NCBI GenBank assembly: GCA_030278955.1
Contig: JAOANR010000006.1
Location: 28,439,124-28,503,123 of the forward strand
Direction of reading: 5' to 3'
Source of the DNA: Hygrophila difformis
Taxonomy: Eukaryota > Streptophyta > Magnoliopsida > Lamiales > Acanthaceae
DNA: 64,000 nt
In this document: in pieces, positions 9,799-56,880 of the stretch
Position numbering within the stretch: position 1 is the first letter of the stretch
How the letters are laid out: every line of letters begins with the position of its first letter
The notes under the pieces: model-generated
Told to the model about the DNA's origin: nothing
The model's input: only the letters and a program-made list of their open reading frames with translations
The model's database searches: none
Translations under genes and position numbers: made by a program

Positions 9799-9801
9799 GA
9801 G

Positions 9802-15689: not shown

Positions 15690-15721
<32 letters not shown>

Positions 15722-32757: not shown

Positions 32758-32867
32758 GATGGTAGAATTTGGGAAGACGGAATTGAGACTAGAAAGCTAA
32801 TTAAACTGGAAGAGAAGAGAATTGACAGATTTGGTAATGTGAGAGTGATGACCGATCGGTCCCCTCC

Positions 32868-33812: not shown

Positions 33813-35391
33813 TCAGTCAGAGTCATCCTCAGAATCGTCATTGTCTCCTACTTCCTCAGATCCATCTCCAGCATCAGCATCCTCAGCATCATCATCTCCA
33901 TCCTCGCTACCATCTCTAGAGCCTACATAGTCCTCATCATCATCGTCCTCCGAAGGTGTCTGAGGAGCAACATATCTCTGTCCTAAGCTCTGGGACATGA
34001 AGAACTCCAGTCGGGCTGCGTGGTAAGCCTGGGCTCGAGCATTCTTTGCAATCTGATCGCTCAAAAAGTGTTGCCTCTGAGCTACCAACCTCATCCGCTC
34101 ATCCATGGTGTTCATCCAATTTTGCTGGTTGGTCATCATTGTCTGCTGGTCAATCCGTAATGCCCTAGCCCAATCAGGCTCTCCCTGATACTGCTGTGAC
34201 TGCTGTGGCTGAGCTCTGCCTCGCCCTCTACCTCTGCCTCTGCCACCTCGTGTACCTCGGGTGGACTGTGAAGGAGCCTCAGAATGCTCCTGGCTTCCCT
34301 GTGATGGTGCAGGTGGTGACTGCCTAGGCAACTCTCTGGGAAGTATCATAGGTTGGCATCTTATGCCAGACAACTTGAAGTTCTTCTTCCCAAATGGAAT
34401 CGGGGGCCTCATTCTCCAATCTCTATCAAACTGCCCCATGTTCACTCCTGCCTGAGCACAAAGTTGCCATATCAAACTAGGGAACGTAAGAGCTGACCTC
34501 TTAGACACCCCCGGTGTCTGTCTCAGCTCAAGCGATACAAGCTCCCCCATGTTGATCGGGCTCCCCACCTTGATGCAATATGGAACATACATATCCAGGG
34601 CAGTGGGTCCAGAGGTGTGAGTCGAATGACTCAATCTCGATCGGTAAAACATGAGAAGCTGGTACATAGGAGCATCCATATCAGGCCCATGTAGCCTACT
34701 CATGCCATCATCATCATATGTGAGGACGTCCTCCTGACCCTCAAACATAGACATCAGCACAAGTTTCTTAAAATCTTCCCTGTCATCAGCTCTCATTACC
34801 GGCTCCCAGAAGTCTCTACCATAGGGCACATCTACTACTCCAAAAATCTGATTAATGTGCTGAGGAGTAATGGGCACTCTGACCCCAAAAATCCAAGAAT
34901 CATCCTCCTCAGCATTGGCTAGAAATAGCCTAGTCAGCTCCCGTGAATATGATCCAGCTGGGTATCTCACAAATCTCTCCCAACCCCTGGATCTAATAGC
35001 ATCTCGAAGCAAAGGGTGCTGCAAGTCTTTCTCTAAAAAACCCCTATCTGCAATGATCCTCTTTTTGTGGAATCTTTTGTACAGCTCATATGCCCTGGCA
35101 CTCCTGAATACAGTGGCATCGAATATGCCCTCCTTGATATACAACAGCTCAGGGACATAGGCTCTGGGATCTTGCCTTTTCGGTCCTCCCCTTGCCGGCT
35201 GCTCCTCTTGCTCCTCCTGATCAACCTCATCATCATCTTCCTCCCCTCCCACAGCCTCAGGGACAGGCTCATGAATAACTAATGCAGCAGATCTCCCTCT
35301 CCTAGGTCGAGAGGAAGTGAAACTCGTGGCGGGTGCCTTCCCCCGAGAGGCTCTAGAGGGGGCCTGTGAATGGTCAGATCCCTCAGGCTGC
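33813..35391 (-). CDS. Accessory ORF 1 of the outer Athila, C-terminal part (split by insertion)
   Basis: About 525 codons open up to the inner Athila edge. The first upstream M in this frame (35477) is inside the inserted LTR and is an artefact; the true N-terminus is at 55682-55406. Order: basic/Ser-rich segment, acidic stretch (EEDDDEVDQEEQEEQ), then the 'putative plant transposon protein'-like domain (RAYELYKRFHKKRIIADRGF, SRGWERFVRYPAG, SRELTRLFLANAE, HINQIFGVVDVPYG). Next come DMDAPMYQLLMFYRSRLSHS, an RG-rich linker (GGRGRGRGRGRAQPQ) and a strongly acidic tail. This part has no stops. Such ORFs sit where Athila elements carry their third or env-like ORF, but I see no signal peptide or membrane anchor. 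Function unknown. Confidence 0.65.
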
Positions 35392-38292
35392 TGAAACTTT
35401 TGACAAATTTCCGTCCCACGAGCTTTTTCTAAAATATACCAGGTTAGATTTATTACAAGAAAAGAGTTACGATTCACGGGAAAGGGTTTAGGGATACATA
35501 TATGTTAAGCTTAACTGTCTTTTTATTACTCAAGTATGGTGCGTTGGTTTCAAATGGCGCTGTGGTCCTCTCTGTCATGGAATGTTGACAAATCTCATGG
35601 CACAGCCGGGATAGGTTGACCTTCAGCCTGTCACACTGAGGATCCCCGGCAGATATGCCATGATACTTCTCATCAATTCTTGCCATAAGAGTTCCTGCCA
35701 TGAAACTTTTTGACAGATTCCCACTACATGAGTATTTTCCAAAAAAATCATGATCCTGGTTTAGGTTCTATTTAATGAAACCAATTTATGATGGCGGTGT
35801 TGTGATTAGGGATATATTTATACGTAGTCATGTTTTTATTGCTCGTAGTTAAGAAACTGTGCCCCCGAAAGCGCACGGTGTCAAAAATTGCAGTAATTTA
35901 TAGTAAGACCGGATCGTTCACTGGAGGATGTGCGATAGAAGCAGGGCCCACGTCGTTTTACTAGATTTTCCATTCGTATTGCTCAATAGGTTTGAAAGAT
36001 GATTAATATCTACTGACGGGAATTTAAACTAGATCTTGAAAGCAGTTAAATTAATCTACAAAGCAAATAAATCTATTCTAGAAAGCGGATAAGAATTATT
36101 CTAGGAATGCAGTAAACATTAAAGCAGGAAAAATTACATTGTGCCAACCGTGAAGCTGAATCACAATGTAGACAGAAGGGACAGGAAGAAAAGAATGAAA
36201 ATTGGACAAGAGTGAGATACAGCAATATTAAACTTCCATTTTCATACGCAGATCTTTGTTTGGGATAATTCTATCAGATAGCTAATTCTCATGCTCTCAA
36301 TAAGGCTTTCCCTTTAACAGACAGGTACTTGCAATATGAGTTTACATGTTCTTAAGACCGCAAATTCTAAGATACCACAGATTCGTAACTGCCCTGGCCT
36401 GGGTGTGTTACTTCATCTGTGGTGGAAAAGCAACACCCGACACATCATTTATTGAAATGTCAAGTACCACTATCATTCTCCCATGTCACACCCAAAGATT
36501 TGAATTCAGCCCTAAACTATCCCTTAACTGTCAATCCTAGTAGCAGTTACACAACTCTCAATACAACCGAGTGACCTCTAATGAAAGCGGTTAAAAGAAA
36601 GCGGTAAAGAAAGCATTTAAACCTATCACTCGGAGGTTTTGAAAATCTGACCCTGGTAGTAAAAGACAGCTCCCCATCAGAATGAAGGAGTATGGATCAA
36701 GAATTCCCGGCTCTCAGTGAACCACTAGTGTGTTCACTTCCTTCCGGGTGATTATGAGATACAAACTAATGAAACGAACTAATAAATTAGTTCGTTCCGG
36801 ATGCACTCACTCAGGACTCAAAAGTAGGCTTTGGCAGAAGAGGATAGCAGTTGAAAGAAAACTCAACCCTATCTTGGAAAATAACCAAGGCCTGGATGAT
36901 GTTCCTCTAAGATTATTTACTACACTGTATTTGAATCCAAGTGGACCCCATCTCGGTGTAGCACTTAATCTTACATTTCCATCAACCAGCAATTTTGGAA
37001 AATAATGGATTTGAAAATCATTCCCTGTCAGGTACTAGACTCTCAGTTAAAACACAGACCCTTTCAGTCTAGGCGAGACCTAATCGCTGAATCTGCTTCT
37101 AATTTCCCAAAATACAACCATTGACAGAATATGAATTAGTCATAACTGAAGAATTTATCCCTTACTCAGATCCGGATTTTATAAAGAGGTTTTTGTTGGA
37201 AATTTATAAAGCAATATCTGTTTAAGATCTAGACTTCTATTGTCCAAGGGAAGGATCCCAAAATAAGTACAGACCACAATAGTATATAATATTATCATGC
37301 ATAAAGATATATGGAAGTGTAAAATTAATTGACCCAAAATATAAATGCGGGTCTAAACAGAAGGTGAAACACAGAATGAAGTGGTCAAGGGACCAAAGTA
37401 ATGGCAGAGTAATCGGGTGGACTGTAAACATCTACTGTCCAATTTCCCAATCACTCGGATGGAGCGAATTTAGACAGCTTAGACCCTATAATGGTGGTGT
37501 CAACACCAGTTGGGCCTCCACTGTCTGTGAATTCGGATAAAAACCTACATGCTTCCCTTCTATAATGATCATCAGTTGGCATTGACTGATGCCAACTGAC
37601 TCCCAGTACGGATGGGGATTCAGGTTTGGAAAATAAGATAATAAAAATAAAACTGTATCTGGATGGGAGTCAGCCGAGCAGCTATTATAACCCCGGATGG
37701 GCGAACTGCCAAGGCTTCCACTGACAGCCATCCAGACCATGCAAAATAACAATTAGTAACTAATACCCAGAATACGAGCTAGTTATCCATGAGGGAGTAC
37801 CCGCCAACATTAGTCTGATGTATTCTTTACTAATGGTTCCACACAACACACGAAGACAAAATAAATAATAAATAAAAGAAGATCCCTTGTATGAGAGACA
37901 TTGGTTTCTCATGCAAGGTTGTGGATTGGGTCCACAATTGATGGTCTTAAATAATCCTTCCTACCATAATTAATTACAGTCCAGATTATCTGTTTAAGCC
38001 ATCGAGATTTTGTTTATACAAGAATGTTTTAATGGCAATTGAACAAAGGTCCTTTAGTCATGATGATTATTGAAGTTTGATTATTGCTAATCTCAATCTT
38101 TAATCATTAATGAGTCAAGGGTTCAATCAGTTAAGTGATGCAAATGGAGAATCAAAATTTGGGCAGCATAACACCCTATATTGCAATTCCAGAATGTTAC
38201 ATCCTAACCCGTGGGGCTATGATGTGAGTGTTGCAATATAAAATAGGGAGAGAATGAAGTTTGTTTGAGATTAAATAGAGGGAGAGGAACCC

Positions 38293-38825
38293 TTGTCGCG
38301 TTATCATAAATTTTGTCGCGGACCGAGATCCGCGACATGGACATCCCGACAAGTTTTTAGAATTTTTGGCAGCATAACGCTTCTTTGTCGCTATGCAAGA
38401 TTTTGTCGCGGAACGTGGTTCCGCGACAAGAGTGACATCGCGACAAAGTGTTTTCATAAAATTCCTAAAGCATTTGAACCCTTGTCGCTATGCATGGAAA
38501 TTTTGTCGCGGAACGTGGTTCCGCGACAAGGTGTTCCGCGACAAGGTGTTCAAAGATCAAGGAACATGGCATAATTTTTCTGTCTCAGAATGGGATTTTG
38601 TCGCGGAACGTGGCTCCGCGACAAGATGATTCCGCGACAAAAAGCCATGAAGACAAAATGCAAGAGTTTGGCTCCTTTGTCGCTATGCATGGACAGTTTT
38701 GTCGCGGAACGTGGCTCCGCGACAAGGTATTCCGCGACAAAGGGTTTTAAATTATGGAGACAAATGTCTTGAAACACCTTGGTCGCATAACAGCCATCTT
38801 GTCGCGGAACGTGGTTCCGCGCCAG
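38293..38825. repeat. Palindrome array 1 in the LTR (TTGTCGCGGAAC/GTTCCGCGACAA)
   Basis: Five main ~100-base units (near 38401, 38502, 38596, 38697, 38799), each with a near-perfect palindrome TTGTCGCGGAACGTGGTTCC continuing GCGACAAG. Spacers include GCTATGCATGG. Duplicated at 53591-54123 in the other LTR. It lies in the transcribed part of the LTR by TATA position. Confidence 0.9.
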
Positions 38826-39478
38826 AAGGCGGTTGGCGCCCAAGGTGGTTCAGGACAAAAGTCAGAAAAAGCAGAAATGAACAGTGGCATGCAAACAGCG
38901 TGATCTCACCCTATTTCAGATCAAAAAGCTATTCTAAGCTAAAAATAAGCAAGAAACATTCAAAATAAAGAAGAACATGCTTAAACAAAAATAACAAGGA
39001 TGGGCAGAATATTAAAATAAAGCAGGAGTCCTAATCTAGGGTTTGATCACACATCCACACAACATTATCCATAATATGCCAACAGTAAACATAAAAATAA
39101 CAAAATGGGGGTCAAATGACCCCAAAATGAAAAAGAAAGCATAAATCCATGGGGTGTGAGACCCATTTCATGATTTGGGACACAAATGATGAATGTTTTC
39201 CCATATTATTGAAGAGGTATTGTTAATACCCATGATTTGGGTATTACAAACCCTAAAACAAGAGTTTAGAAACCAAAACATGGTATAAAAATGGCTATCT
39301 AAGCAACTGTGAACAGTAAAACACTAAACTAAGCTAAACTAAGAGCAAAAATTAAATAATACATGAAAATAAACCTAAACTACTCTACCTAAGGAAGAAC
39401 TCCTAAGCTTGCCTGCAAGAGCTCTATAACAATTTCAATCTCTCTACTGGCCAACCCTTAGCTCATGGGAGACACCTC

Positions 39479-39488
39479 ATATTTATAG
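39479..39488 (-). promoter_or_regulatory. LTR TATA box, 3' LTR copy
   Basis: Minus strand TTCTATAAATATGAGG, a good plant TATA box. The palindrome array at 39580-39812 lies about 90 bases upstream in element sense. Same in the other LTR near 54778-54786. Confidence 0.75.
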
Positions 39489-39579
39489 AAGTGTAACCCT
39501 AAGCCCATGGGCCTTGATTCTAGCCCATTGTGTCTTAAGACATCACACACATCACAGCTTTGTCTCGGAGCATCAAGTT

Positions 39580-39812
39580 GGTCGCGGAACACACTGCATG
39601 TGGCAAGGCTTCTCGACTGGGTCTTGTGTCTCTATTTGTGCATCTTGGTCGCGGAACATGCCTTTGTCGCGGAGCATGCCATCGCGACAAAGGTCATCGC
39701 GCCAAGGGGCTTGGCTGGTCTCCTCTTCATCTGGGCCACTTGGTCGCGGAACATGCCTTTGTCGCGGAACACTGCATCGCGCCAAGGGGCTTCCGCGACA
39801 AAGGTCTTCCTG
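39580..39812. repeat. Palindrome array 2, LTR U3, upstream of TATA
   Basis: TGGTCGCGGAACA, TTGTCGCGGAGCATG, CATCGCGACAAAGG, GCGCCAAGGGGCTT and TTCCGCGACAAAGG in mixed orientation. Shorter spacing than array 1. Copy in the other LTR at 54878-55110. Confidence 0.85.
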
Positions 39813-40107
39813 GGCCTGCTGGATTGGGCCAGATGGGCCGAAAATATTCTTTTTGTGGGCTTTTCTATCTTTTTCCCATCTTTTTGTTTCCTTTTCTTTT
39901 TCTCATGTTTTTGGATTTTTCTAACATAACTATGTAATAAAATTACATATTTATGCCTTTTTCACACCAGCTTATTATTTTTACAATTATGCATAAATTA
40001 GTCCAATTCGACTGCTTTCTTACTTAATGTAAGACCGGAATGCGATCAAATGCCCATTTAAGACACGGAAATGGATTGAAAATAATGGTCATTTTTGGCC
40101 ATTATCA

Positions 40108-40123
40108 ACATCCTCACATTTAA
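40108..40123 (-). other. Polypurine tract of the inner Athila
   Basis: Minus strand TTAAATGTGAGGATGTT then TGATAATGG (LTR start). The same motif recurs internally at 42516-42535 and 44423-44444. Confidence 0.75.
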
Positions 40124-41787
40124 TACTGATCGTCCCCGAGCAGTCAGAGTCAATGTTCGTAAGAACACGGACTCTACATATTCAATTCATTTTCGTGGCT
40201 TCATAAATCACATCCTTTTTGGATTGGGATAAGACAATCAAAAATTACAAGTATTGAATTCCCTTGATTGCAGTGTTTAATGAAATGATACTCGCTCACT
40301 ACATCGGGCCTACAAATCAAACATTATTATCAACCTTTCATGAATATCATGTTTGAAAAATGCAAAGATTAGGGATGAGAATTAGAGGATGACATGAACA
40401 TGTGTAATAAGACAAAGCCTCACATATAAGAGAATCGGAAAAATTCACTCACTCTCAATTGGGGTTTAATCATAAACGCTCAAAATCACATTTAATTAAA
40501 TTATCCCATAAGCTTGCAATCAGACCAACTCGCCACCGGCTCATTTCTTCAAATCGAGATCACGAGGTCTTATTTGAGGGTTATAACGGGGCGTACGGTT
40601 GTAACATTAGGTAGGAAAGGAAAATTATTGGGCTAGAAGTGGCAAAGATTTATTCTATCATAACTTGGCATATTTATTTAAAATTTATGATCATCAGTAT
40701 TCCTTTCTTCTTTCTTTTGCTTTTCTTATTGCATGACATTAGACTATGTCTAATTTGCTTTGTCATTTGCAATTTATTTGTGTTGAATGACATTCAACTC
40801 TCTTTTTTTTTTTTTTTTTTGATGAATCAGTTTATAGAGTACCGATTTATGGTTTTCATTGATGATCAAAAATTGTAATGCCTTGATAGAATTCATCCTT
40901 GCACACTTGGGTTTGAATTTCTTGGTCTTTTTGTAAGGCTAGGAATAATATAAAGGGCTTCAAAGAAAAATTAGGCTTATAGGCTCAAATTGGTTAATCC
41001 TAAAGGGAAAATGTTTTTGGGTTTGGATTTCAAAAGAAGGCCAAAAATTTTGGGTTTTCTAGGTGCCTCGATCATATGCTCGATTTCGGGAATATGGCAT
41101 GGTCTTGGATCGGTCACAATTGCAAGTTCTAGTTTCCTTTAATCAAAATGATTCACACATCAAAGAAAATGAATGAGTAAAAGTGACTCATGGCTCAAAT
41201 CTCACAAGGTTGGGTTGATTCATGTCATACAATATTCTCAAATTTAATCCAAGCTTAGTTCTAACAACTTATTCAATCGAGATCTCTAACATGCAGATTT
41301 ATTACCCAATAAGCTGATCGCATCATTAAATTTTTATAGCTCAAAACCTCAGGAATTCATTTCATGCATGTCTTCAATTATATTATCCCAATTTGAAAGT
41401 CTGAAAATTTAATCATAAGCCTAAATTCAACCTGTGAATTTAGAGCAAGTTTATGCATATTTTTGCTGGTTATTTAATTGAAAGCAGTAAAGAGGCACTG
41501 CTGACATACTGAGTATGTCAACAGCATATTTTTGGCCTGACAGTCACTTATTCATCTCGGACTGTGCAGACATCTTTTCAAAGGAAAGCAGTAAAGAATT
41601 GTTCAGTGGTCTCAAAAGCTGAGTTCCAATTTAGGGAAAGCAAATAAATACAACCGAGGCAAGGGATTCTCGTGCAGTTAATACAAACCTGCACACACAA
41701 AAGGAGGATTCCCTTGCAGATTACTACTACTAGAATGGAAATGAAATAAAGCCAGGTAAAGTGGAACTAGGATTCTTCCTTTCTTCT
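40124..41787. other. 3' untranslated region of the inner Athila
   Basis: AT-rich. Contains a 20-base T run near 40802 and AAAGCAGTAAAG words. No ORF with recognisable features. Includes polyadenylation-like AT stretches but no clear signal I can fix. Confidence 0.5.
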
Positions 41788-42448
41788 TCAGGGCATGTAT
41801 CGGAGCCAGAGGACACAGCTGGAAAGCTCACAACGCAGGCACCAATCGCGGTTTCTCAGAGGTGCATGCCATCTTGGGCAGTAGACTCTGACTCCTTGGC
41901 CTGCCCACAGTTGTGGGTTGTCTGGGTTGTCTGTTATCCAAGCGAGGACGTTGGTGGAAGTGTACCGAAAAACTGATCGATCTGTCACCATCCTGTCGAT
42001 CATTCTGATCCCCTGCTCAACTTGGCTTTCATCCGTCTTACTCATAAGCATCAATCCGCGGGTGAAGATTGACGTCTTATGGTTGTCCTCAAGTCCCGGG
42101 CGTAGCAGTTCAAAAGCGCGCTCCTCATTCCCCTCTGCAAATGCCCTGAGTGCTGGGATGAGCTGAAGATTGAAGTTTCCTGCCGCTGTGCATATTCGCA
42201 GGAATCTCTCCTTCTGCCGACGGATCCTTACTTGCCATCTCTTCACAGTGGAGGTGTTAACCTCGCATCGCTTGTACACGATAGTAAGGTTTCCAGCATC
42301 CCTGAGCTTCTTGCATACACGTTGCGCGGCAAACACCTCCCTGATTTCATCCTCTCCTATCCGGGAGAGGATTTCACCAAGGAGTTCTAGCGGTAAGTCC
42401 AGCAACTTAGTTCCCTCTGGAGCAGGGTCTGGAATGGGAGGATTACCC
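41788..42448 (-). CDS. F-box protein, exon 2 (captured gene in the inner Athila)
   Basis: About 219 codons. Near the start LDLPLELLGEILSRIGEDEI followed by VFAAQRVCKKLRDAGN is a clear F-box (LPxELLxxILSR..VCKxLR), the motif that binds SKP1 in SCF ubiquitin ligases. Then KERFLRICTAAGN and an alpha-helical stretch with AFAEGNEERAFELLRPG follow, the layout of plant At2g35280-like F-box proteins, whose middle holds Sel1-like helices. It ends with a Cys/Trp/His-rich tail (CPRWHAPLRNRDWCLRCE, CVLW). The frame has no ATG before the F-box; a good 3' splice site (CTTATCTTTTCAG) at 42449 supplies the N-terminus from exon 1. It occupies the slot where the outer Athila has accessory ORFs. The substrate is unknown. 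Confidence 0.72.
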
Positions 42449-43512
42449 CTGAAAAGATAAGAAGTGATGAATCCAATTTTTATGTAATTTTCGGGAATTA
42501 TTCAAGTTCAGAAACCAACATCCTCACATTTAGAGCTTTGCTCTAGATGTGAGATTATTAAATTTCTGACTTGAATTTTTAATTTAAAGCACATGCAAAC
42601 AATATTTGGTTTTAAATGGGCTAAAGAGCCCAAAATAAAATAAAATTGGCCATTGGGCCCAAAATCTTTTTAATGGGCCATTGGGCCCAAAAGTTTTCAG
42701 TTTTATTAAACAAGTCCGAGACACTTGTTGGAAGTGGAATGAGATGGATAGATGGAAATGGAATGCTCGAATATTGGAATGTGCAATGGAGACGTGGCGG
42801 AACGGATCTGCTGTTTCTGGATAGCTTGGACTGTTTGGACAGTTAAAGCATCCAAAAATTTGCAAACACTGTTTTTAATTTTAAAAATGGTTGACTTGTT
42901 TTATTTAACAAAGGTGGGATGTGAGTGGTCCCATTTTGGATTTTTGAAAAGGATAGCAGTTGGGTGACAAAAGTACTGCTATCTTACTCACACTAGTGTT
43001 CCATTGGGAACAAAAGACTCAAGTCAAACATTAAACAAAAATGACTCTTTTTGTCTTTTTCTAAAAGTTGCTTTTATTAAAAGTGGAAGCTTCCTATTGG
43101 GTGTTTGTACTATGTTTCCATAAACAAACAAACATTTATTCCCATGAGATTTCTAACATGGGGACAAATGTGCCCAAAGAGATCTTACCTCTTTTATTAC
43201 ACCAACTCAACACTGTGCACATCACATCAGGATCAATCAAACCAACAACATCAAGATATTCAAAACAATACCCAAATGTTCATCAGTTTGTTCTTTCCCG
43301 TTTTAAACCTTCAAAAACTTATCCATTACCAGTTTCAAAATGGGGTTTCAGGCGTTTCAAAATGATGCTCATAACCGAGAGCACTTTGAAAACTTCCAAA
43401 AATCTAAAGTTAAATGCACACATTAACCACACCACACCAAGAACACAACAAAATAAAAAACAAAATAAAGGGTCCGAATGGGTGCTATGAACATGGCGAA
43501 AACAGGGTTTAC
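42449..43512 (-). other. Predicted intron of the F-box gene, 1064 bp
   Basis: GT at 43512 (GAGAGG|GTAAAC) and AG at 42449 (TTTTCAG|GGG), with a pyrimidine-rich acceptor. Splicing joins exon 1 (two bases of a codon left over) to exon 2 (first base completes it) in frame. The intron holds a PPT-like motif at 42516-42535. A plus-strand ORF across 43068-43490 has no recognisable features. Confidence 0.55.
42516..42535 (-). repeat. Internal PPT-like motif near the F-box acceptor
   Basis: Minus strand CTCTAAATGTGAGGATGTTG, nearly the PPT plus LTR junction at 40108-40123, about 68 bases upstream of exon 2. Confidence 0.65.
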
Positions 43513-43580
43513 CCTCTCCTCCTTGGCTCGGGTCTAGGCACGGGTCCAAGGTTTGGGAGGAGTCCATGAAATCGGTCCAT
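43513..43580 (-). CDS. F-box gene, exon 1 (predicted)
   Basis: ATG at 43580 opens 22 codons, MDRFHGLLPNLGPVPRP and on, ending in Arg-rich residues just before the donor. Without splicing the frame meets TAA within two codons. The ATG lies about 150 bases downstream of a TATA-like box. Proline/arginine-rich, no domain. Supported by reading-frame continuity and splice sites only. Confidence 0.5.
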
Positions 43581-43728
43581 AGTTTCCCCTTGGAAATGGA
43601 GTGCAAGAGTGCGAAGAACACGTGGTGTTCGTTCGGATGAGAGAAAAATGGGGGAAAAGAAGATGAAGAAGTTGGGGGAAGTTGAAATGACAAGAGAAAG
43701 TGAAAAGAAACTGGAGGGGGTGGGGGGG

Positions 43729-43736
43729 TATAAATA
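43729..43736 (-). promoter_or_regulatory. TATA-like box of the F-box gene
   Basis: Minus strand AAGTATTTATACCCCCC. It lies between the palindrome array (43743-44060) and exon 1, the same order (array, TATA, start) as in the LTR. Confidence 0.55.
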
Positions 43737-43742
43737 CTTGAA

Positions 43743-44060
43743 CTTTTGTCGCGGAATCCGAGACTTTGTCGCGGAACCAGGTTCCGCGACAAGGCATAGC
43801 GACATCAGAGAGGTCGCGGAGTTGAGGGTTGGTCGCGGAGTCATGCTCCGCGACAAGGCTACCGCGACAAAGTTCAGTATGGAGACAAAGTCAACGCAGA
43901 TCATGTCGCGGAGCAGGGCTTGGTCGCGGAGTCATGCTCCGCGACAAGGTGCATCGCGACAATCACCGGAGAAGGGTTAAGAAGGAAAAGGGAGTTTGTC
44001 GCGGAACAGGGCCTGGTCGCGATGTATGACATCGCGACAAAGGACCTTCCGCGACAAAGA
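43743..44060. repeat. Palindrome array 3, upstream of the F-box gene
   Basis: TTGTCGCGGAACCAGGTTCC GCGACAAGG, GGTCGCGGAGTCATGCTCCG CGACAAGG (twice), TTGTCGCGGAACAGG and TTCCGCGACAAAG, in the same style as the two LTR arrays but with different spacers. Bounded by a T23 run at 44063-44085. Confidence 0.85.
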
Positions 44061-44567
44061 ATTTTTTTTTTTTTTTTTTTTTTGAATTTTCAAATTTTCT
44101 TGGACTGGGCCCGAGTGTGATGTGGGCCTGAGTCCATTTTATTTGATTTGGGCTGAATAAATTCAGTCCAAGTAAATTCAAAATGCTGGGCTGAAAATTA
44201 AACAATCCACTTGCATAAAATTAGGTTGGGTTAGTTCCATTTATCTGTGAATTTTGTTTCGGGTATTGAATCTCTTCAAATTCCGAAAACGTTTTCTTAG
44301 ACTTATGGAACTAATCCAACCAAGAACCTGGTTTTCCATGTTACTCTTATCTGCTCCTCTTTTTTGGGGGTTCCGAACTTCTGCAAGATAGATGAATGAA
44401 ATGCATTAGATTTTCTCCAAATATCAACATCCTCACATTTAGAGTCTTAGTACTCTAAATGTTTAATTGATCTTTGGGTACTTGCTCGTCATGAAATAAG
44501 TACTGTAAATATATACTATATATATATATATATAAACTAAAATTTTTGTGTTTTTAAATGCTGTTTC
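44061..44567. other. Spacer between pol and the F-box promoter region
   Basis: Holds a poly-T run (44063-44085), a PPT-like motif followed by TGATA (44423-44444) and a TA microsatellite (44510-44534). No coding pattern. Confidence 0.5.
44423..44444 (-). repeat. Internal PPT-like motif with LTR-start-like TGATA
   Basis: Minus strand CTCTAAATGTGAGGATGTTG then ATATTTGG. It copies the PPT and the first LTR bases (TGATA), just downstream of pol. Confidence 0.7.
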
Positions 44568-47500
44568 TTATTGAGTGTAGGCCGGGTCTGCCACTGCTTG
44601 GCTTTCTTTCTCCGGATCGAACTGTCCAAGGTACTCTTTTAATCGTTGTCCATTCACCACTATATCGCCCCTATCAGTTCGGATCCTGACAGCTCCATTT
44701 TTGAACACCTCTAGTACTTCATGTGGTCCTTCCCATCTAGATTTGAGCTTTCCGGGGAACAGCTTCAACCTAGTATTGAACAATAACACATGTTGACCAA
44801 CATAAAAATACTTAGGTTTGATCCGGCGATCGTGCAACTTCTGGGTCCGCTCCTTGTAAATTCGAGAGCTTTCATAAGCTTGCGCTCGTATTTCCTCAAT
44901 TTCATTGAGGTCCAACTTACGTTTGCTCTGAGCAACTTTCGGATCGAAGTTAAGCGTTTAACGGCCCAGTAAGCTTTATGCTCTAGCTCTACGGGTAAAT
45001 GACAGGCTTTTCCGAAGACCAGCCTATATGGAGACATCCCGATGGGAGTCTTATATGCTGTGCGGTATGCCCATAGAGCATCATTGAGCTTACGTGCCCA
45101 ATCCTTACGGGTTATCCCGACAGTGGCTTCGAGTATGTGTTTGATTTCGCGATTGGATACTTCGACTTGACCACTAGTCTGAGGATGGTAAGGCGTGCCT
45201 ATCTTATGGAGGATCCCATTTTTACTCATTAAAGTTTCAAAACCTTTATTAATAAAGTGTGTTCCTCCATCAGATATCACCACCCTAGGTACGCCAAATC
45301 GACTGAAAATGTTGTTCTTGAGGAACTTGATGACTTGGCTACCATCATTGGTCGGTAATGCGACAGCCTCGACCCATTTGGATACGTAATCGACAGCTAC
45401 CAAGATATAGTAGTTTCCACCAGATGGTGGAAACGGTCCCATGAAGTCAATGCCCCATACATCAAAGATCTCAAGTGTGAGAATCCCCTTTTGAGGCATC
45501 TCATCCCTCTTGGAGATGTTTCCTAATCTTTGGCATCTGTCACAGCCCTTAACAAATGTCCTGCAATCCTCATAGATGTGAGGCCAATAAAATCCACATT
45601 CGAGGACCTTGTGGGCCATTCGAGCGGGACCATGGTGACCTCCATATTCTGATTCATGGCATTTTCTGACAATTTGATAAGCTTCATGCTCGGTCACACA
45701 TCGCCTGATTATTAAATCAGGGCAGTGTTTGAAGAGATAAGGTTCTTCCCAGAAGTAACTTAATACATCTCGTTTGAACTTATTCCTCTGATGATAGTTC
45801 GAAAACTGTGGGGTTACTCCGCATGCCAAGAAGTTAGCGATGTCGGAAAACCATGGGCAAGCTTGATTATGCAGATGCAACGCGAACAACTGTTCGTCCG
45901 GGAAATCTTCATTGACGGCTTTTTCCTTTTTATCATTATCTAATCGAGATAAGTGGTCAGCAGCACCATTATCTCGACCTCGCCTATCTTTTATTATGAT
46001 GTCGAATTCTTGCAACAGAAGTACCCACCTGATTAATCGAGGTTTTGCATCTTGTTTGCTAAACAAGTATCTCAATGCTGTATGATCAGTGTATACTATG
46101 GTCTTTGTACCTATCAGGTACTGTCTGAACTTGTCAAACGCGAAGACTACAGCATACATCTCTTTCTCCGTTGTGGTGTAGTTAACTTGGGCTTCATTCA
46201 GGGCGTGACTCGCGTAATGAATTACGCAGTGTCTCCCATCCTTATGTTGTCCAAGAACTGCGCCTACGGCGAGACCACTAGCATCGCACATTACCTCGAA
46301 AGGCAGTGACCAATCGGGTGGTTGCACTATCGGTGCAGAAACCAACATCTTCTTGAGCGTGTCAAAGGCTTGGACACACGCTTCATTTATTAAGAAAGGA
46401 TTTTCTTTACAAAGCAGATTAGTGAGCGGCTTGGCAATTTTAGAGAAATCCTTAATGAATCGCCGGTAAAAACCGGCATGCCCTAAGAAGCTCCTAACTG
46501 ATTTGATCGAGTTAGGAAGAGGGAGATTGGAGATGATGGAAACTTTGGCTGGATCAACTTCAATGCCTACACGAGAAATGCGATGACCTAACACTATGCC
46601 CTCAGTGACCATAAAATGGCACTTTTCCCAATTTAAAACCAAGTTAGTGTCCTCACACCTCTTTAAAATCTTAGCAAGATTGGTCAAACAATCTTCGAAC
46701 GTATCTCCATATACAGAGAAGTCATCCATGAAGACCTCAATGCATTTTTCGATAAATTCAGAGAAAATAGACATCATGCATCTTTGAAAAGTAGCAGGTG
46801 CATTGCACAAACCAAAAGGCATCCGTCGATAGGCAAAAGTGCCGTACGGGCAAGTAAAAGTGGTTTTCTCATGGTCTTCACTAGAGATAACAATCTGATT
46901 ATAACCAGAATAACCATCCAAAAAGCAATAAAACTCTCTCCCTGCCAACCTCTCAAGCATCTGATCAATGAATGGCAATGGAAAATGGTCCTTGCGTGTG
47001 GCCTCGTTCAGCTTCCGGTAGTCGATACAAACTCTCCATCCGGTCACTGGCCTGGTTGCAACCTCTTCTCCTTGCTCATTCTTGGTTATGCACATCCCTC
47101 CTCGTTTGGGTACGACCTGCACCGGGCTAACCCATTTGCTATCAGAGATAGGATAGATTATACCAGCATCTAAGAGCTTGATAACTTCTTTCCTCACCAC
47201 TTCCTGCATAAGGGGGTTCAATCGCCTCTGAGGTTGACGGGAGGGTTTAAACTCTTCTTCCATTAGAATCCTGTGCATGCAAATAGAAGGGCTTATTCCT
47301 TTTATATCAGAAATGGTCCAACCTATTGCATGTACATGTTTCTTAAGAACGTCCACCAGAGCGTTTTCTTGCTCTTGGGAGAGCTTAGCCGAAACAATCA
47401 CGGGTAACTTTTTATGTTCTGCGAGAAACGCGTACTTGAGATGATCGGGTAGTGTTTTAAGTTCAAGCTCTGGTGGACATTCAACGGAAGGGAGTAGTTT

Positions 47501-50500
47501 GCGAGAATTGGGTAGTGGGAGAACAGATTTACCTTCGGGATCCTGCATCAGTACAGGATCCTCTTCCTCCTCTTGGTTGGCGTCATCATGGAAGTCGATG
47601 CCGTCAAATTCCTCCAAATCCCCTGTTTCGGGATCGGCAAAGTGAACGGCTTTGCATCCTTTGTGCTCCACGCCAGCAGGCTTCAGTACCTGCTTTGATA
47701 GTTCATCCAGCATCATTTCACAATCAAGTTCAGAGTCTGGCTCTTCCCTAACTATTACATTTTCAAATGAGAAACAAGAACTGTCATTCGGAAATTTCTG
47801 CAATTTCTCCATATCAAAGATGATCTCCTCGCCATCGACCCTTAAGGTGACTTTTCCGGATTTAGCGTCAATCAGTGCACCACCAGTGGCTAGAAATGGG
47901 CGTCCAAGGATAAGCGGCATTTCAGAATCCTCTTCAATGTCGAGGACGATGAAGTCGACCGGGAAAAGAACCTGCCCGGTTTTGACCACAACATCCTTGA
48001 GGATTCCTACGGGCTGAGTGATCGATCTGTCTGCAAGTTGCAGTCTCATCTTGACCGGTTGAATTTCTCCAAGCTTAAGGCGAACAGCCATAGCTAGTGG
48101 CATCACATTGATGCTTGATCCTAAATCACAAAGCCCCATACTCACTTTGGCCTTTCCGAATTGTACTGGAAGTGTGCAACATCCGGGGTCCTCTTTCTTT
48201 TCAGGCATTCTCCTCTGAACGATGGCACTACATGTGCTGTTGAGAATAATTACCTCTTCCTGCTCAACCTGCCTTTTTCCTGAAATCAATTCTTTCAAGA
48301 ACTTAGCATAGATGGGCATTTCGGAAATCATTTCTGTGAGAGGAATGGTTATCTCTACAGACTTTAATCGTTGCAGAAATTTCTTGAATTTAAGATCATG
48401 TTCTTTATTTTTAAGCCGCGCAGGATAAGGAATCCTGGGCATGTACTTGTTATTAGCAATTTTTGGTGATGAAGGGAAGGAAGTTGTACCTTCACCTGTA
48501 CCCTTATCTGTTTCAGCCATTTCAGGCGCAGCTTCAGTCTGCAATTCGGCTGTCTCTTTTTCCGCTTTATTCCCATTATCAGCTTCCTTACCAGCATTGT
48601 CAACAATATCATCTTCTTCAAATTCCGCTCCAGTATCTGCTCCCTTTGGTCCAGCTAGTACTCTTCCAGATTTCAAGGTTATTGCCTTGCATTGCGGGTT
48701 CTTTTCCGCAGTACTAGGCAATGTTCCTTTGTCCCTTTTCTGCATCTCGTTAGCCATCTGTGTAACTTGGGTCTCCACATTTCTGATGGAGGCCTGCAGT
48801 TGATTGTTGATCTCTTTCTGACTAGTGATGAAATCAGTCATCAGATTCTCAAGCCTTGAAGGAGGCTTTTGATTCTGATTCTGATTTTGATGCTGATTCT
48901 GATTCCACTGGCCTTGGTTTGGGACAAACTGAGGCTGGAAACTCTGATTGGGCTGAAAGTTCTGGAAATTCTGAGGCGGCCTCTGCTGGATCTGAGGTTG
49001 GAAACCTAGATTCTGAAAATGTTGGCCCCTGTTCTGATTGAATCCTTGGTTCTGCTGAGGGTTGAACTGTTGTTGCTGTGGCTTGTTCAAGAGATGTGAG
49101 TTTAAGGCGTTGTTGTTTGAATAAGACAAATTCGGGTGTCTATTTGGAAAAGCTCCTGCATAGTTACAGCTCTCAGCTGTGACTTGCTCGCATGTGTCAG
49201 TTGCATGAGCACCTTGACACAGTCCACAGATCACATCAGTTTGCTGTCCCTGCGCAGAACTTCCAACTCCTTGATTTACAGACAACGCTGCCACTTGCTC
49301 TTGAAGCTTTTCAATGTCTGACTTCTCTACTATACCTACAGCACATAAACTACGAGGGGGAGTGAGATTACCATCATCAGTTAGAACAGAACGGTTGACA
49401 CTCATGGCTTCAATCTTTGCCCAGGCTTGGTCCATAGGTATGTAGAGCAAATATTGACCACCAGCAGCATCAAGCATGGATTTCCATGCTGGGGTCAGAC
49501 CACTGTAGAACTTTCTCAGTCTCTCCCAGTCATGGAAGCCATGTTGAGGACACTTCCTGAGCAGGTTGAAGAATCTTTCCTTTGCATCATACAAGGACTC
49601 GTCTGGTTTCATCTTGAATTCCGCAATTTTGGAGCGGCATTCATCCACCTTGGACTCCGGGAAGTATTTTGCTAGGAAGTTTCTGATCACATCTTCCCAT
49701 GTAGACTTCTGATTTACGGGCAGTGACTTGTACCATGTTCGTGCTCCGCTTGTCAGAGAGAAGGGGAATAGCCTTAGTCGAATAGTGTTTGCGGGTACAT
49801 CACGATTCTTGATCGTGTCACACAATTCTAGGAAGGTTTGCAGGTGATCATGGGGATCTTCATGACTTGCTCCGGCAAACTGGTTGCTCTGGACTAGATT
49901 GATTAGGGCCGGTTTCAGTTCGAAATTCCTGGCCAAGAATGGAGCTTGTCCAGGAATGTTCAGATATGGCTCTAAAATCGGCTGCATGTAATCAGCAGCA
50001 GCTGCTGCTTGATGATTGTTCTCAGGCCCGCCTTGGTACTGCTGTGGGTAGTAGTTCTGAGGCATGAAATAGTTCCTCGGATCATTGAAATCATTCGGAT
50101 TCGGGGGATTCTGATGGGGGTTATGGTATTGCTGATTCTGTTGGTTTGGGAAATTTTGCTGATTTGGTTGGTTTTGGTTGTTTGGTGGGTTTTGGTTCGG
50201 GTTGGGAGGGGGTGCCTCGAAGTGCTGCTGCTCCATGTTTGGTGGATTCCCACCTCCTTGTATGATCTGGGGAGGGGGATCATCCAAATCATCATGATCA
50301 GCGTCTTCGGGGTCTTCCTCAATGTTGTGAAGTGGGGGATTGGGTTGAATGATTGGTGGGATGTCAGGGTTTGCCATTTCGGAAATATCGTTGCTGGTGC
50401 TTGGCGAAAGTAATGCATGTCGTTCCCGTTCCCTTCTTCGTTTAGTCTCCGCCCTAAGACGTCGAGCTGTCTTTTCTATCTCTGAATTAAACGGGATCTC

Positions 50501-50527
50501 GGCTGGCGTATGCTTCCTCCTTTGCAT
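44568..50527 (-). CDS. gag-pol: Gag-Pol polyprotein of the inner Athila (one late frameshift)
   Basis: A single frame of 1920 codons from the ATG at 50527 ([14 protein letters not shown]). Rough residues: Pro/Asn/Gln-rich N-terminal part; Gag core about 190-370 ([16 protein letters not shown]); CX2CX3HX4C knuckle [13 protein letters not shown]; protease about 800 with [11 protein letters not shown] (the Athila form of the DSG site) and [10 protein letters not shown] about 1090-1290 with intact FMDDFS near 1266; RNase H; integrase with an HHCC finger (CDRCQR) and the D-D-E residues (GIDFMGPFP near 1690, ISDGGTHF near 1750, REIKHILE near 1796). A one-base loss near 44953 (about residue 1858) shifts the integrase C-terminus into another frame, where it continues to 44568 ([21 protein letters not shown]). 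Everything else looks functional. Encodes particle, copying and integration functions. Confidence 0.92.
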
Positions 50528-50671
50528 AGAACAACGACTTCAATAATGACAGTACCTGTACAATCCCCAGGTTAGAAGTGGTTCTGAAGGTGAATATTTA
50601 TAATTATATGTATAGGCTACTCTAGGAGCAATGAGGAATGTAATTCTCTAAATAAAACGGCGCTGCATCCT

Positions 50672-50688
50672 CCCCGGCAACGGCGCCA
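50672..50688 (-). promoter_or_regulatory. Primer binding site, tRNA-Asp type
   Basis: Minus strand TGGCGCCGTTGCCGGGG starts immediately at the LTR end, the usual Athila/Tat primer site. Confidence 0.9.
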
Positions 50689-53600
50689 TGAAACTTTTGA
50701 CAAATTTCCGTCCCACGAGCTTTTTCTAAAATATACCAGGTTAGATTTATTACAAGAAAAGAGTTATGATTCACGGGAAAAGGGTTTAGGGATACATATA
50801 TGTTAAGCTTAACTGTCTTTTTATTACTCAAGTATGGTGCGTTGGTTTCAAATGGCGCTGTGGTCCTCTCTGTCATGGAATGTTGACAAATCTCATGGCA
50901 CAGCCGGGATAGGTTGACCTTCAGCCTGTCACACTGAGGATCCCCGGCAGATATGCCATGATACTTCTCATCAATTCTTGCCATAAGAGTTCCTGCCATG
51001 AAACTTTTAGACAGATTCCCACTACATGAGTATTTTCCAAAAAAATCATGATCCTGGTTTAGGTTCTATTTAATGAAACCAATTTATGATGGCGGTGTTG
51101 TGATTAGGGATATATTTATACGTAGTCATGTTTTTATTGCTCGTAGTTAAGAAACTGTGCCCCCGAAAGCGCACGGTGTCAAAAATTGCAGTAATTTATA
51201 GTAAGACCGGATCGTTCACTGGAGGATGTGCGATAGAAGCAGGGCCCACTTCGTTTTACTATATTTTCCATTCGTATTGCTCAATAGGTTTGAAAGATGA
51301 TTAATATCTACTGACGGGAATTTAAACTAGATCTTGAAAGCAGTTAAATTAATCTACAAAGCAAATAAATCTATTCTAGAAAGCGGATAAGAATTATTCT
51401 AGGAATGCAGTAAACATTAAAGCAGGAAAAATTACATTGTGCCAACCGTGAAGCTGAATCACAATGTAGACAGAAGGGACAGGAAGAAAAGAATGAAAAT
51501 TGGACAAGAGTGAGATACAGCAATATTAAACTTCCATTTTCATACGCAGATCTTTGTTTGGGATAATTCTATCAGATAGCTAATTCTCATGCTCTCAATA
51601 AGGCTTTCCCTTTAACAGACAGGTACTTGCAATATGAGTTTACATGTTCTTAAGACCGCAAATTCTAAGATACCACAGATTCGTAACTGCCCTGGCCTGG
51701 GTGTGTTACTTCATCTGTGGTGGAAAAGCAACACCCGACACATCATTTATTGAAATGTCAAGTACCACTATCATTCTCCCATGTCACACCCAAAGATTTG
51801 AATTCAGCCCTAAACTATCCCTTAACTGTCAATCCTAGTAGCAGTTACACAACTCTCAATACAACCGAGTGACCTCTAATGAAAGCGGTTAAAAGAAAGC
51901 GGTAAAGAAAGCATTTAAACCTATCACTCGGAGGTTTTGAAAATCTGACCCTGGTAGTAAAAGACAGCTCCCCATCAGAATGAAAGAGTATGGATCAAGA
52001 ATTCCCGGCTCTCAGTGAACCACTAGTGTGTTCACTTCCTTCCGGGTGATTATGAGATACAAACTAATGAAACGAACTAATAAATTAGTTCGTTCCGGAT
52101 GCACTCACTCAGGACTCAAAAGTAGGCTTTGGCAGAAGAGGATAGCAGTTGAAAGAAAACTCAACCCTATCTTGGAAAATAACCAAGGCCTGGATGATGT
52201 TCCTCTAAGATTATTTACTACACTGTATTTGAATCCAAGTGGACCCCATCTCGGTGTAGCACTTAATCTTACATTTCCATCAACCAGCAATTTTGGAAAA
52301 TAATGGATTTGAAAATCATTCCCTGTCAGGTACTAGACTCTCAGTTAAAACACAGACCCTTTCAGTCTAGGCGAGACCTAATCGCTGAATCTGCTTCTAA
52401 TTTCCCAAAATACAACCATTGACAGAATATGAATTAGTCATAACTGAAGAATTTATCCCTTACTCAGATCCGGATTTTATAAAGAGGTTTTTGTTGGAAA
52501 TTTATAAAGCAATATCTGTTTAAGATCTAGACTTCTATTGTCCAAGGGAAGGATCCCAAAATAAGTACAGACCACAATAGTATATAATATTATCATGCAT
52601 AAAGATATATGGAAGTGTAAAATTAATTGACCCAAAATATAAATGCGGGTCTAAACAGAAGGTGAAACACAGAATGAAGTGGTCAAGGGACCAAAGTAAT
52701 GGCAGAGTAATCAGGTGGACTGTAAACATCTACTGTCCAATTTCCCAATCACTCGGATGGAGCGAATTTAGACAGCTTAGACCCTATAATGGTGGTGTCA
52801 ACACCAGTTGGGCCTCCACTGTCTGTGAATTCGGATAAAAACCTACATGCTTCCCTTCTATAATGATCATCAGTTGGCATTGACTGATGCCAACTGACTC
52901 CCAGTACGGATGGGGATTCAGGTTTGGAAATTAAGATAATAAAAATAAAACTGTATCTGGATGGGAGTCAGCCGAGCAGCTATTATAACCCCGGATGGGC
53001 GAACTGCCAAGGCTTCCACTGACAGCCATCCAGACCATGCAAAATAACAATTAGTAACTAATACCCAGAATACGAGCTAGTTATCCATGAGGGAGTACCC
53101 GCCAACATTAGTCTGATGTATTCTTTACTAATGGTTCCACACAACACACGAAGACAAAATAAATAATAAATAAAAGAAGATCCCTTGTATGAGAGACATT
53201 GGTTTCTCATGCAAGGTTGTGGATTGGGTCCACAATTGATGGTCTTAAATAATCCTTCCTACCATAATTAATTACAGTCCAGATTATCTGTTTAAGCCAT
53301 CGAGATTTTGTTTATACAAGAATGTTTTAATGGCAATTGAACAAAGGTCCTTTAGTCATGATGATTATTGAAGTTTGATTATTGCTAATCTCAATCTTTA
53401 ATCATTAATGAGTCAAGGGTTCAATCAGTTAAGTGATGCAAATGGAGAATCAAAATTTGGGCAGCATAACACCCTATATTGCAATTCCAGAATGTTACAT
53501 CCTAACCCGTGGGGCTATGATGTGAGTGTTGCAATATAAAATAGGGAGAGAATGAAGTTTGTTTGAGATTAAATAGAGGGAGAGGAACCCTTGTCGCGTT

Positions 53601-55405
53601 ATCATAAATTTTGTCGCGGACCGAGATCCGCGACATGGACATCCCGACAAGTTTTTAGAATTTTTGGCAGCATAACGCTTCTTTGTCGCTATGCAAGATT
53701 TTGTCGCGGAACGTGGTTCCGCGACAAGAGTGACATCGCGACAAAGTGTTTTCATAAAATTCCTAAAGCATTTGAACCCTTGTCGCTATGCATGGAAATT
53801 TTGTCGCGGAACGTGGTTCCGCGACAAGGTGTTCCGCGACAAGGTGTTCAAAGATCAAGGAAAATGGCATAATTTTTCTGTCTCAGAATGGGATTTTGTC
53901 GCGGAACGTGGCTCCGCGACAAGATGATTCCGCGACAAAAAGCCATGAAGACAAAATGCAAGAGTTTGGCTCCTTTGTCGCTATGCATGGACAGTTTTGT
54001 CGCGGAACGTGGCTCCGCGACAAGGTATTCCGCGACAAAGGGTTTTAAATTATGGAGACAAATGTCTTGAAACACCTTGGTCGCGTAACAGCCATCTTGT
54101 CGCGGAACGTGGTTCCGCGCCAGAAGGCGGTTGGCGCCCAAGGTGGTTCAGGACAAAAGTCAGAAAAAGCAGAAATGAACAATGGCATGCAAACAGCGTG
54201 ATCTCACCCTATTTCAGATCAAAAAGCTATTCTAAGCTAAAAATAAGCAAGAAACATTCAAAATAAAGAAGAACATGCTTAAACAAAAATAACAAGGATT
54301 GGCAGAATATTAAAATAAAGCAGGAGTCCTAATCTAGGGTTTGATCACACATCCACACAACATTATCCATAATATGCCAACAGTAAACATAAAAATAACA
54401 AAATGGGGGTCAAATGACCCCAAAATGAAAAAGAAAGCATAAATCCATGGGGTGTGAGACCCATTTCATGATTTGGGACACAAATGATGAATGTTTTCCC
54501 ATATTATTGAAGAGGTATTGTTAATACCCATGATTTGGGTATTACAAACCCTAAAACAAGAGTTTAGAAACCAAAACATGGTATAAAAATGGCTATCTAA
54601 GCAACTGTGAACAGTAAAACACTAAACTAAGCTAAACTAAGAGCAAAAATTAAATAATACATGAAAATAAACCTAAACTACTCTACCTAAGGAAGAACTC
54701 CTAAGCTTGCCTGCAAGAGCTCTACAACAATTTCAATCTCTCTACTGGCCAACCCTTAGCTCATGGGAGACACCTCATATTTATAGAAGTGTAACCCTAA
54801 GCCCATGGGCCTTGATTCTAGCCCATTGTGTCTTAAGACATCACACACATCACAGCTTTGTCTCGGAGCATCAAGTTGGTCGCGGAACACACTGCATGTG
54901 GCAAGGCTTCTCGACTGGGTCTTGTGTCTCTATTTGTGCATCTTGGTCGCGGAACATGCCTTTGTCGCGGAGCATGCCATCGCGACAAAGGTCATCGCGC
55001 CAAGGGGCTTGGCTGGTCTCCTCTTCATCTGGGCCACTTGGTCGCGGAACATGCCTTTGTCGCGGAACACTGCATCGCGCCAAGGGGCTTCCGCGACAAA
55101 GGTCTTCCTGGGCCTGCTGGATTGGGCCAGATGGGCCGAAAATATTCTTTTTGTGGGCTTTTCTATCTTTTTCCCATCTTTTTGTTTCCTTTTCTTTTTC
55201 TCATGTTTTTGGATTTTTCTAACATAACTATGTAATAAAATTACATATTTATGCCTTTTTCACACCAGCTTATTATTTTTACAATTATGCATAAATTAGT
55301 CCAATTCGACTGCTTTCTTACTTAATGTAAGACCGGAATGCGATCAAATGCCCGTTTAAGACACGGAAATGGATTGAAAATAATGGTCATTTTTGACCAT
55401 TATCA
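50689..55405 (-). repeat. 5' LTR of the inner Athila, 4717 bp
   Basis: Minus strand TGATAATGG...GTTTCA. Same arrays and TATA box as the 3' LTR. The PBS begins at the next base, with no spacer. Confidence 0.95.
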
Positions 55406-55682
55406 AAGGCTGAATGGGCTGGTAAGGCTGATTGACCTCCTGCTGGTCATCAGCGGGTGCAGTAATATGCCTCGAAGAAGCACCACTCTTGGACTTACTC
55501 TTTCTGAAATAAGAAAAAAGTCCCTTAGACTTGGAAGCACCTCTCGAGCCCTGTGGTGGATCCATCTGTATAAAATTTTTCGTACGGAGTCTGCGATGTT
55601 CAAAAATATGCTCATCAGGAATAGGAGTAGGAATGCTATCCGGTGACTGTGGATCATAAATCCCCATCCTTCCCTCGGGCAT
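55406..55682 (-). CDS. Accessory ORF 1 of the outer Athila, N-terminal part
   Basis: ATG at 55682 (MPEGRMGIYDPQSPDSIP) after an in-frame TAG. About 92 codons with a basic/Ser-rich stretch (SKSKGLFSYFRKSKSKSG), cut at the inner Athila edge in ...NQPYQPIQP. The frame continues at 35391 (QPEGSDHSQ) once the insertion and its target repeat are discounted, so this was one ORF of about 620 codons before the insertion. No domain in this part. Confidence 0.6.
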
Positions 55683-56880
55683 GGGTATATATACCTATAA
55701 CCCGATTTCTTAGGGAGATTTGGAGGATTATACATTATTTCAGTACCTGGTTGTACAAAAACTCTGGGTTAGTATCATATATATGCATTGCCTCACATCC
55801 TCACACTTAAGTTTAAACCAAAGGTTTAACTTAAGTGTTAAGTATAAAGCAAACATATACATCAACCTAGAATGTGGGATTTAAATGACTCAATGACCAA
55901 AATGTTGTATTTTAAAAGTTATGAATCCTAACTTTGTTTAAACATATCATCCATTTTATTCTAGAGTTTAAGATTCATGTTAGAGCATGCTTTTTTCAAT
56001 AAAAACTCCTCATTTTATTAAATTCCCAGATTTAATAAATAAAATAACCTAAAATAATAAACTAGTGCATTAAAAATGGTTTAAATTAATATTTAAATCC
56101 ATTCCAATTTATTCATATGATAAATTAACCTATTTTAATTAACTAAGTTATAAATAAAAGAGTTTTTATCAAAATATGCTCCAATTAACTCATATTATGA
56201 AGAACATGGAATTTTTGACATAAAAATAACTTTATATTTTTAATATAACTAAAATGACATGTTCTAGTGATTTTTCATCCATTTAATTAATCAAAAATGC
56301 CATTTTAATTAGTTTTAAAGCAATTTCCAGATTTTAATTTTCAAAAATCCCAAATTTTTAAATGTAATCAAAAAATTTTCATATTATGCAAGAAATTCAT
56401 GTTCTACAACACTTGTTCATGTTTAAACTAAGATTTAGACAATTAAAAACAAGTTTAATCCCACATTCTAACAATACCCAAAATTTGAGTAACTACACAA
56501 ATACCACAATTAATGCATTCCAAAGCACTAGAATATGATAAAATTTGAATTGGGATAGCTATTCTTACCTAAATTGAAGGATTGGAGCACTTTGAAGAGG
56601 ATTCCCCAAAGTTGGAAGAACTAGGGTTCTTGAGCCCTAATTTGATTAAACAAACAAAATTTGGGGTTTTTGGAATGAGAATTGACAATGTAGATGAGAA
56701 TTGATAGGAAGAAACAAGAATTGGAAGAATTTTTACCGGAATGGCGCAAGTGTGTCGCTTGGGGGGAGATGTGGCGCTCGGTTGTGTGTTGGGAGGAAGG
56801 AGGAAGTCTCTTCGGTCGAATGGAATGGAAAAGAATGAGATTTTGGGGTTAAATCCGATTCTGGTCCGGGTCAAGGACTG
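55683..56880. other. Leader/intron-like region upstream of accessory ORF 1
   Basis: In element sense it has a pyrimidine-rich leader and CTTCAATTTAG|GTAAGAAT near 56573, a strong 5' splice-site look-alike. It ends with TTGTACAACCAG near 55750, an acceptor-like site, and a PPT-like GTGAGGATGTGAGG at 55791-55811. No coding pattern; an intron-containing leader is inferred. Confidence 0.45.

Follow-up and report, generated by a model that had tools for sequence, protein, structure and literature searches.

Evidence for a selected F-box gene between pol and the 3' LTR of an Athila-type retrotransposon family in Hygrophila difformis

Results and discussion

An F-box gene within a young Athila-type element

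The window, by which we mean the whole stretch of DNA that was analysed, covers 64,000 nt of the forward strand of Hygrophila difformis (assembly GCA_030278955.1, contig JAOANR010000006.1:28,439,124-28,503,123) and holds an LTR retrotransposon that carries a two-exon F-box gene (Table 1). By its long gag-pol frame and its layout this element, from here on the focal element, is classed as Athila-type. It sits within another Athila-type element, referred to as the outer element. Its two LTRs, paired by a self-BLAST of the window, are 99.68% identical (14 mismatches and 1 gap in 4718 columns), and its primer binding site TGGCGCCGTTGCCGGGGA is presumably of the tRNA-Asp type. The target duplication is not clean: read by eye, CAGCCT (element orientation) is found at both outer ends with an offset of 1 base.

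RT, RNase H, integrase and gag lie in one long frame, in which six gag/pol Pfam families scored over their cut-offs and the protease match remained under its own (21.8 bits, cut-off 24.3). In the focal copy the pol frame (50539-44765) stops short of the integrase C-terminus, the remainder of which is found in the frame 44957-44568. Among 20 other copies of the element, described below, 13 have a pol frame that runs uninterrupted to the usual end (10 of these over the whole visible stretch); measured from exon 2, the frame of the focal copy breaks off about 115-220 nt sooner than in those 13.

Table 1. Positions in the window of the F-box gene, its carrier element and the third ORF of the outer element
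Feature	Position	Strand	Basis or remark
Whole Athila-type LTR retrotransposon with F-box gene	35392..55406	-	20.0 kb; LTR pair from window self-BLAST
5' LTR, 4.7 kb	50689..55406	-	Window self-BLAST
Primer binding site TGGCGCCGTTGCCGGGGA, adjoining 5' LTR	50671..50688	-	18-nt site read
gag-pol frame, 1924 codons (gag, protease-like, RT, RNase H, integrase)	44765..50539	-	ORF list and Pfam
Integrase C-terminal part, other frame	44568..44957	-	pol interrupted in focal copy
First hairpin, then PPT-like AAATGTGAGGATGTTG, directly after pol	44425..44475	-	z -4.4
Palindromic repeat block (TCGCGGAAC...GTTCCGCGA)	43738..44065	-	Also held by the LTRs
TATA-like box TATTTATA, 156 nt 5' of exon-1 ATG	43729..43736	-	In 20/21 copies
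Exon 1 of F-box gene, with ATG at 43580	43513..43580	-	ATG and donor GT in 21/21 copies
Intron of F-box gene, 1064 nt in focal copy	42449..43512	-	GT...AG in 21/21 copies
Second hairpin and PPT-like motif, 80 nt 5' of exon 2	42516..42560	-	z -6.0
Exon 2 of F-box gene, stop codon included	41788..42448	-	ORF, Pfam, copy survey
F-box domain PF00646	42295..42405	-	22.3 bits, cut-off 20.5
TPR-like body TPR_27, PF23310	41974..42228	-	31.8 bits, cut-off 27
Cys-containing tail YCP...WCLRCEL	41824..41883	-	Invariant columns, 25 aligned copies
Polypurine tract AAATGTGAGGATG at 3' LTR	40109..40121	-	Sequence read
3' LTR, 4.7 kb	35392..40108	-	Window self-BLAST
Transposase_32 (PF20167) third ORF of outer element	33813..35391	-	78.8 bits (stretch 34000-35504), cut-off 45

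The F-box gene lies between pol on its 5' side and the 3' LTR on its 3' side, and its predicted product has 242 residues. Exon 1 has 68 nt and, joined to exon 2 across a GT-AG intron (43512-42449), gives 242 codons and a stop; in the unspliced exon-2 frame there is no ATG upstream of the F-box. In the focal and 20 other copies the ATG, the donor GT and the acceptor AG are all kept (21/21), and the splice signals are invariant despite an intron length that ranges from 1057 to 1157 nt. The core string of the second hairpin is likewise identical in 21/21 copies. Exon 1 itself, with a pN/pS of 1.18, shows no constraint at the protein level.

Two Pfam domains were identified in the third-ORF product, an F-box and TPR_27. 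A profile search of the frame 41788-42448 matched PF00646 with 22.3 bits against a curated cut-off of 20.5. Scores for type A, one of three protein types distinguished below and that of the focal copy, are just over this cut-off (22.3-22.6 bits for the focal protein, 22.7 for copy L051), and the one type-B protein that was scanned (L054) scored under it, with 19.0 bits. Against a cut-off of 27, the TPR_27 match reached 31.8-34.8 bits in the three proteins scanned from types A and B. In the tail, the YCP and WCLRCEL columns do not vary among 25 aligned copies of the three types. Structure models were too poor for use (mean pLDDT 36.9 and 44.4). The original prediction, made from the sequence of this locus, described a young Athila element, its LTRs differing by about 0.3%, with a spliced F-box gene of about 242 residues in the place of a third ORF, and the gene position, the domain match, the exon structure and the LTR identity all agree with it.

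The gene is carried by other copies of the family

We searched the genome of H. difformis itself (915 Mb, 246 contigs) with the F-box protein as query, which gave 6097 first-look candidates, unverified as copies. The 150 of these that were scored, the focal one included, are all 94-100% identical and 141 have no internal stop; since these matches were ranked by protein, they are a biased sample. From this sample we read 10 kb of each of 20 copies taken from across the ranks, including two that were chosen for having a stop. All 20 have pol 5' and the 3' LTR 3' of the F-box gene (the LTR match being short in L022) and share the order pol, repeat block, exon 1, intron, exon 2 and LTR, and exon 2 is intact in 18. 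A host gene with its own intron, nested in the focal copy alone, was considered and rejected, the gene order being the same in these 20 copies.

Ranking by protein would lower dN in itself, so copies were chosen anew by the neighbouring non-coding DNA, with the sequence 3' of the gene (40300-41700) as query. The best 40 of 4950 candidates, again unverified, are the focal element and 39 others, 92-97% identical in this non-coding DNA; six of the 39 are also within the 20 protein-ranked copies. Every one of the 39 holds F-box exon-2 sequence (L057 its 3' half only) and in 34 the frame is intact, the five broken copies (L045, L047, L055, L057 and L075) being excluded from the dN/dS ratios that follow. 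As the 39 are the best-scored of 4950, young copies are favoured and decayed old ones under-represented, and 34/39 is not a family-wide rate. It does exclude a frame that is open by chance, because these copies were picked by DNA outside the gene. In most of the other copies examined the ORF is kept, in agreement with the original prediction. The Athila-type family that carries the gene is large and has been active recently. In L057, the sequence 5' of the half exon translates like part of the LTR repeat region.

Purifying selection on the F-box gene

In the copies chosen by non-coding DNA the pooled dN/dS was 0.127 within type A (23 rows, focal included) and 0.213 within type B (10 rows, the mosaics L044 and L064 being placed here by their tails); it was 0.263 between types A and B and 0.239 over all 35 intact rows. 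Values of 0.13-0.26 in copies that were not chosen by protein are evidence of purifying selection (dN/dS < 1), for which the original prediction had proposed a check of this ORF, and the persistence of the signal in such copies led us to reject an artefact of protein ranking as its source. For the protein-ranked set (21 rows), the pairwise dN/dS was 0.12 (dN 0.0138, dS 0.112). The compared part of pol gave 0.128 in the protein-ranked copies, from 14 indel-free rows (3 of them carrying stops) out of 21.

Further evidence came from the age of the changes. Taking the focal copy as reference, we compared 11 indel-free type-A copies from the first 20 places, among them L047 in spite of its stop. 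Changes common to at least two copies comprised 12 nonsynonymous and 30 synonymous ones, where 29.6 nonsynonymous were expected, and none of 5000 nulls was as low; changes found in a single copy comprised 24 nonsynonymous or stop and 21 synonymous ones, with 32.1 expected and 36 of 5000 nulls as low. Old changes were therefore strongly filtered and young ones weakly, as would be expected of a gene that is selected while the element transposes and decays once it has inserted. Taken together, intact frames, low dN/dS and the preserved start, splice sites and hairpin make the gene a selected part of the element, and we are confident that the F-box gene is real, under selection and a regular constituent of a large family of Athila-type elements.

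Protein types and mosaic copies

Three protein types were found, A (the focal copy), B (e.g. L037 and L054) and C (L067), which differ mostly C-terminal of the F-box and whose identity falls as low as 69%. Type C has 69% amino acid identity to the focal protein, with a pS of 0.53 and a dN/dS of 0.23. Between A and B, in the first 20 places, pS reached 0.64 over the last 50 residues and 0.18 in the F-box, and over 35 rows the invariant columns number 32/47 in the F-box, 53/110 in the middle and 19/50 in the tail. Some copies are mosaic. In L066 the front resembles A and the back C, and in L064 the front resembles A and the back B; L044 is a further mosaic.

The types differ by a pS of 0.3-0.5 in exon 2 despite a match of 92-97% in the neighbouring non-coding DNA. 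In the protein-ranked copies, too, the synonymous divergence of exon 2 (0.112) is above that of pol (0.040) and above the divergence of the intron (0.037) and of the 3' non-coding DNA (0.051), so the exon has a recombination history of its own. Mosaicism explains this excess of synonymous divergence, with capture of several host alleles as another possible source, and recombination among elements would be the simplest reading of types and mosaics alike. Recombination between Athila families is on record for Arabidopsis (PMC2410132).

The third-ORF slot of the outer element

The outer element carries a Transposase_32 frame as its third ORF. Transposase_32 is called a putative transposon protein, and we know of no role for it. 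An open frame, 55407-55694, lies on the far flank of the insertion. Read by eye, the outer element runs from pol through a GCGCCAC-type palindromic block, a GTAAG donor, a hairpin with GTGAGGATG and an AG acceptor to the third ORF. The focal and outer hairpins differ in stem sequence and are alike in design (z -6.0 and -7.4, respectively). From this like order and hairpin design in one outer element, the module for third-ORF expression appears to be older than its F-box content. The slot taken by the F-box gene is the one that Transposase_32 fills in the outer element. On its 5' side come, in turn, pol, a repeat block and an intron, and ahead of the 3' splice site there is a hairpin accompanied by a PPT-like motif.

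The combination of a hairpin and GTGAGGATG, which resembles the polypurine tract at 40109-40121, was seen at 44425-44475 and 42516-42560 in the focal element and at 55790-55850, before the third ORF, in the outer one; it is possibly an internal plus-strand priming or a splice signal. The palindromic units TCGCGGAAC...GTTCCGCGA of the focal element are found in its LTR (38287-38824 and 39627-39803) as well as in the internal leader region (43738-44065). Another palindrome family (GCGGCGC/GCGCCAC) is present in the outer element, at seemingly matching places.

Comparison with known systems

Searches outside this genome gave no relatives of the F-box protein: there was none at E <= 0.01 in the protein collection (340 candidates), none in viral contigs (41 pattern stretches) or genome contigs (79 pattern stretches), nothing in the PDB matched by sequence at E below 0.05, and the two F-box proteins scanned against NCBIfam had no match. 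In a search of openly licensed literature we recognised no plant LTR element with an F-box gene as its third ORF. A review of additional ORFs (PMC7264820) does not contain the word F-box, and a survey of Retand (PMC11963269) contains neither F-box nor ubiquitin.

The focal element resembles Athila/Calypso elements in its single long gag-pol (1924 codons, against 1892 for Diaspora, PMC1142308) and in having one more ORF, in sense orientation, 3' of pol and ahead of the 3' LTR. If its primer site is indeed of the tRNA-Asp type, it shares this as well with Diaspora and Calypso, for which such a site is reported (PMC1142308). It differs from them in that its third ORF is F-box/TPR-like and not env-like or Transposase_32, in LTRs of 4.7 kb, which set it apart from the elements compared, and in a primer site directly at the LTR, against 5 bp away in Diaspora. 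Purifying selection is described for the gag and env frames of Arabidopsis Athila (PMC2410132).

Extra ORFs are common in plant retrotransposons and, to our knowledge, their roles are mostly unknown. The F-box ORF is like such additional ORFs in its position, sense orientation and many copies, and its predicted splicing can be compared with that of Bagy2, in which splicing is reported to give access to an extra ORF (PMC7264820). With plant F-box proteins that have a PF23310 body and a Cys-containing tail, the putative At2g35280-like group of the original prediction, it shares the order of F-box and then TPR_27, the difference being that its gene belongs to a retrotransposon and is present in many copies. 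A meeting of F-box genes with transposable elements is also reported from Caenorhabditis, where host F-box genes took up transposon domains (PMC12062965); in the nematodes it is the host gene that acquired a transposase domain, and here an element carries an F-box gene. A parasite with an F-box protein of its own has an analogue outside transposable elements. The P0 protein of poleroviruses is an F-box silencing suppressor, and the likeness would consist in an F-box protein encoded by a parasite, P0 being the protein of an RNA virus.

Proposed role of the F-box gene and alternatives

We consider it probable, judging from sequence evidence, that the third gene of this family encodes an F-box protein under purifying selection which serves the element as an SCF receptor for a host protein. 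Transcription would start at the internal TATA-like box, or else at the 5' LTR, the RNA would be spliced across the intron, and the 242-residue protein would bind host SKP1 through its F-box. The helical body and the Cys-containing tail would hold a target protein, which the SCF ligase would mark for destruction. The likeliest targets would be host proteins that limit the element, e.g. silencing factors, and the next choice would be Gag or integrase of the element itself. A silencing or restriction factor as the target is put forward tentatively. Equally tentative is a fuller version in which an element-encoded SCF receptor, kept over a time that sufficed for three lineages to form, destroys a host restriction or silencing factor, with an F-box half that stays constant and target-binding halves that diverge and are shuffled. 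If a silencing factor is indeed removed, this would be a case of transposon counter-defence through protein turnover. The known chemistry of the F-box, the selection and the many near-identical copies make this role of a third ORF directly testable.

Other readings have to be weighed against this one; they are partly compatible with each other, so that their probabilities need not add up to one. Purifying selection shows a function and not its kind, and the element could keep the gene for a purpose without SCF action, the F-box fold and helical body forming a binding platform, e.g. one that helps Gag or integrase to assemble or is chaperone-like to them, or serving in env-like trafficking. The type-B protein under the F-box cut-off and the filling of the same slot next door by another third ORF, Transposase_32, are both in line with such a platform. 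We nevertheless regard it as unlikely, as the F-box is the most conserved part across the types (32/47 columns), in keeping with a constant partner, e.g. SKP1. Somewhat less credit goes to an F-box protein that acts on the element's own proteins and not on those of the host, timing the removal of Gag or integrase: this would fit all of the sequence evidence, but it is less economical, since host SCF receptors could presumably do the same without a gene of the element.

The divergence of exon 2 among the types, set against the close match of the neighbouring non-coding DNA, could also mean that each of the types A, B and C was taken up independently from host F-box paralogues, or renewed from them by gene conversion, in which case the dN/dS between types would reflect selection in the host; such a history may coexist with the proposed receptor role. 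Several observations make it improbable. In the first 20 places, all 20 copies have the AG acceptor preceded by nearly the same 30 bases (TAG in L049 and L052, CAG in the rest), the ratio within type A is as low as 0.127 (23 rows) with few nonsynonymous changes among shared variants, and the mosaics L044, L064 and L066 suggest exchange among elements. Lastly, simple capture without function, which the original prediction had kept as its alternative, with a host gene fragment caught once and spread as a passenger of the element, can draw on the known capture of genes by plant LTR elements, mostly in one or few copies (PMC7264820), but it is contradicted by 34/39 intact frames, a dN/dS of 0.13-0.26, the test of shared and single-copy changes and invariant splice signals around an intron of variable length, and we hold it to be very improbable.

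Other repeats in the window

The outer element seems to have a second, decayed Transposase_32 ORF at 31300-32796 (16.2 bits, cut-off 45), which is preceded by a repeat block. The self-BLAST of the window gave further long pairs of direct repeats at 1-5205, 7756-16310 and 19099-24662, with identities of 99.7%, 99.95% and 90-93%, which are probably more LTR elements.
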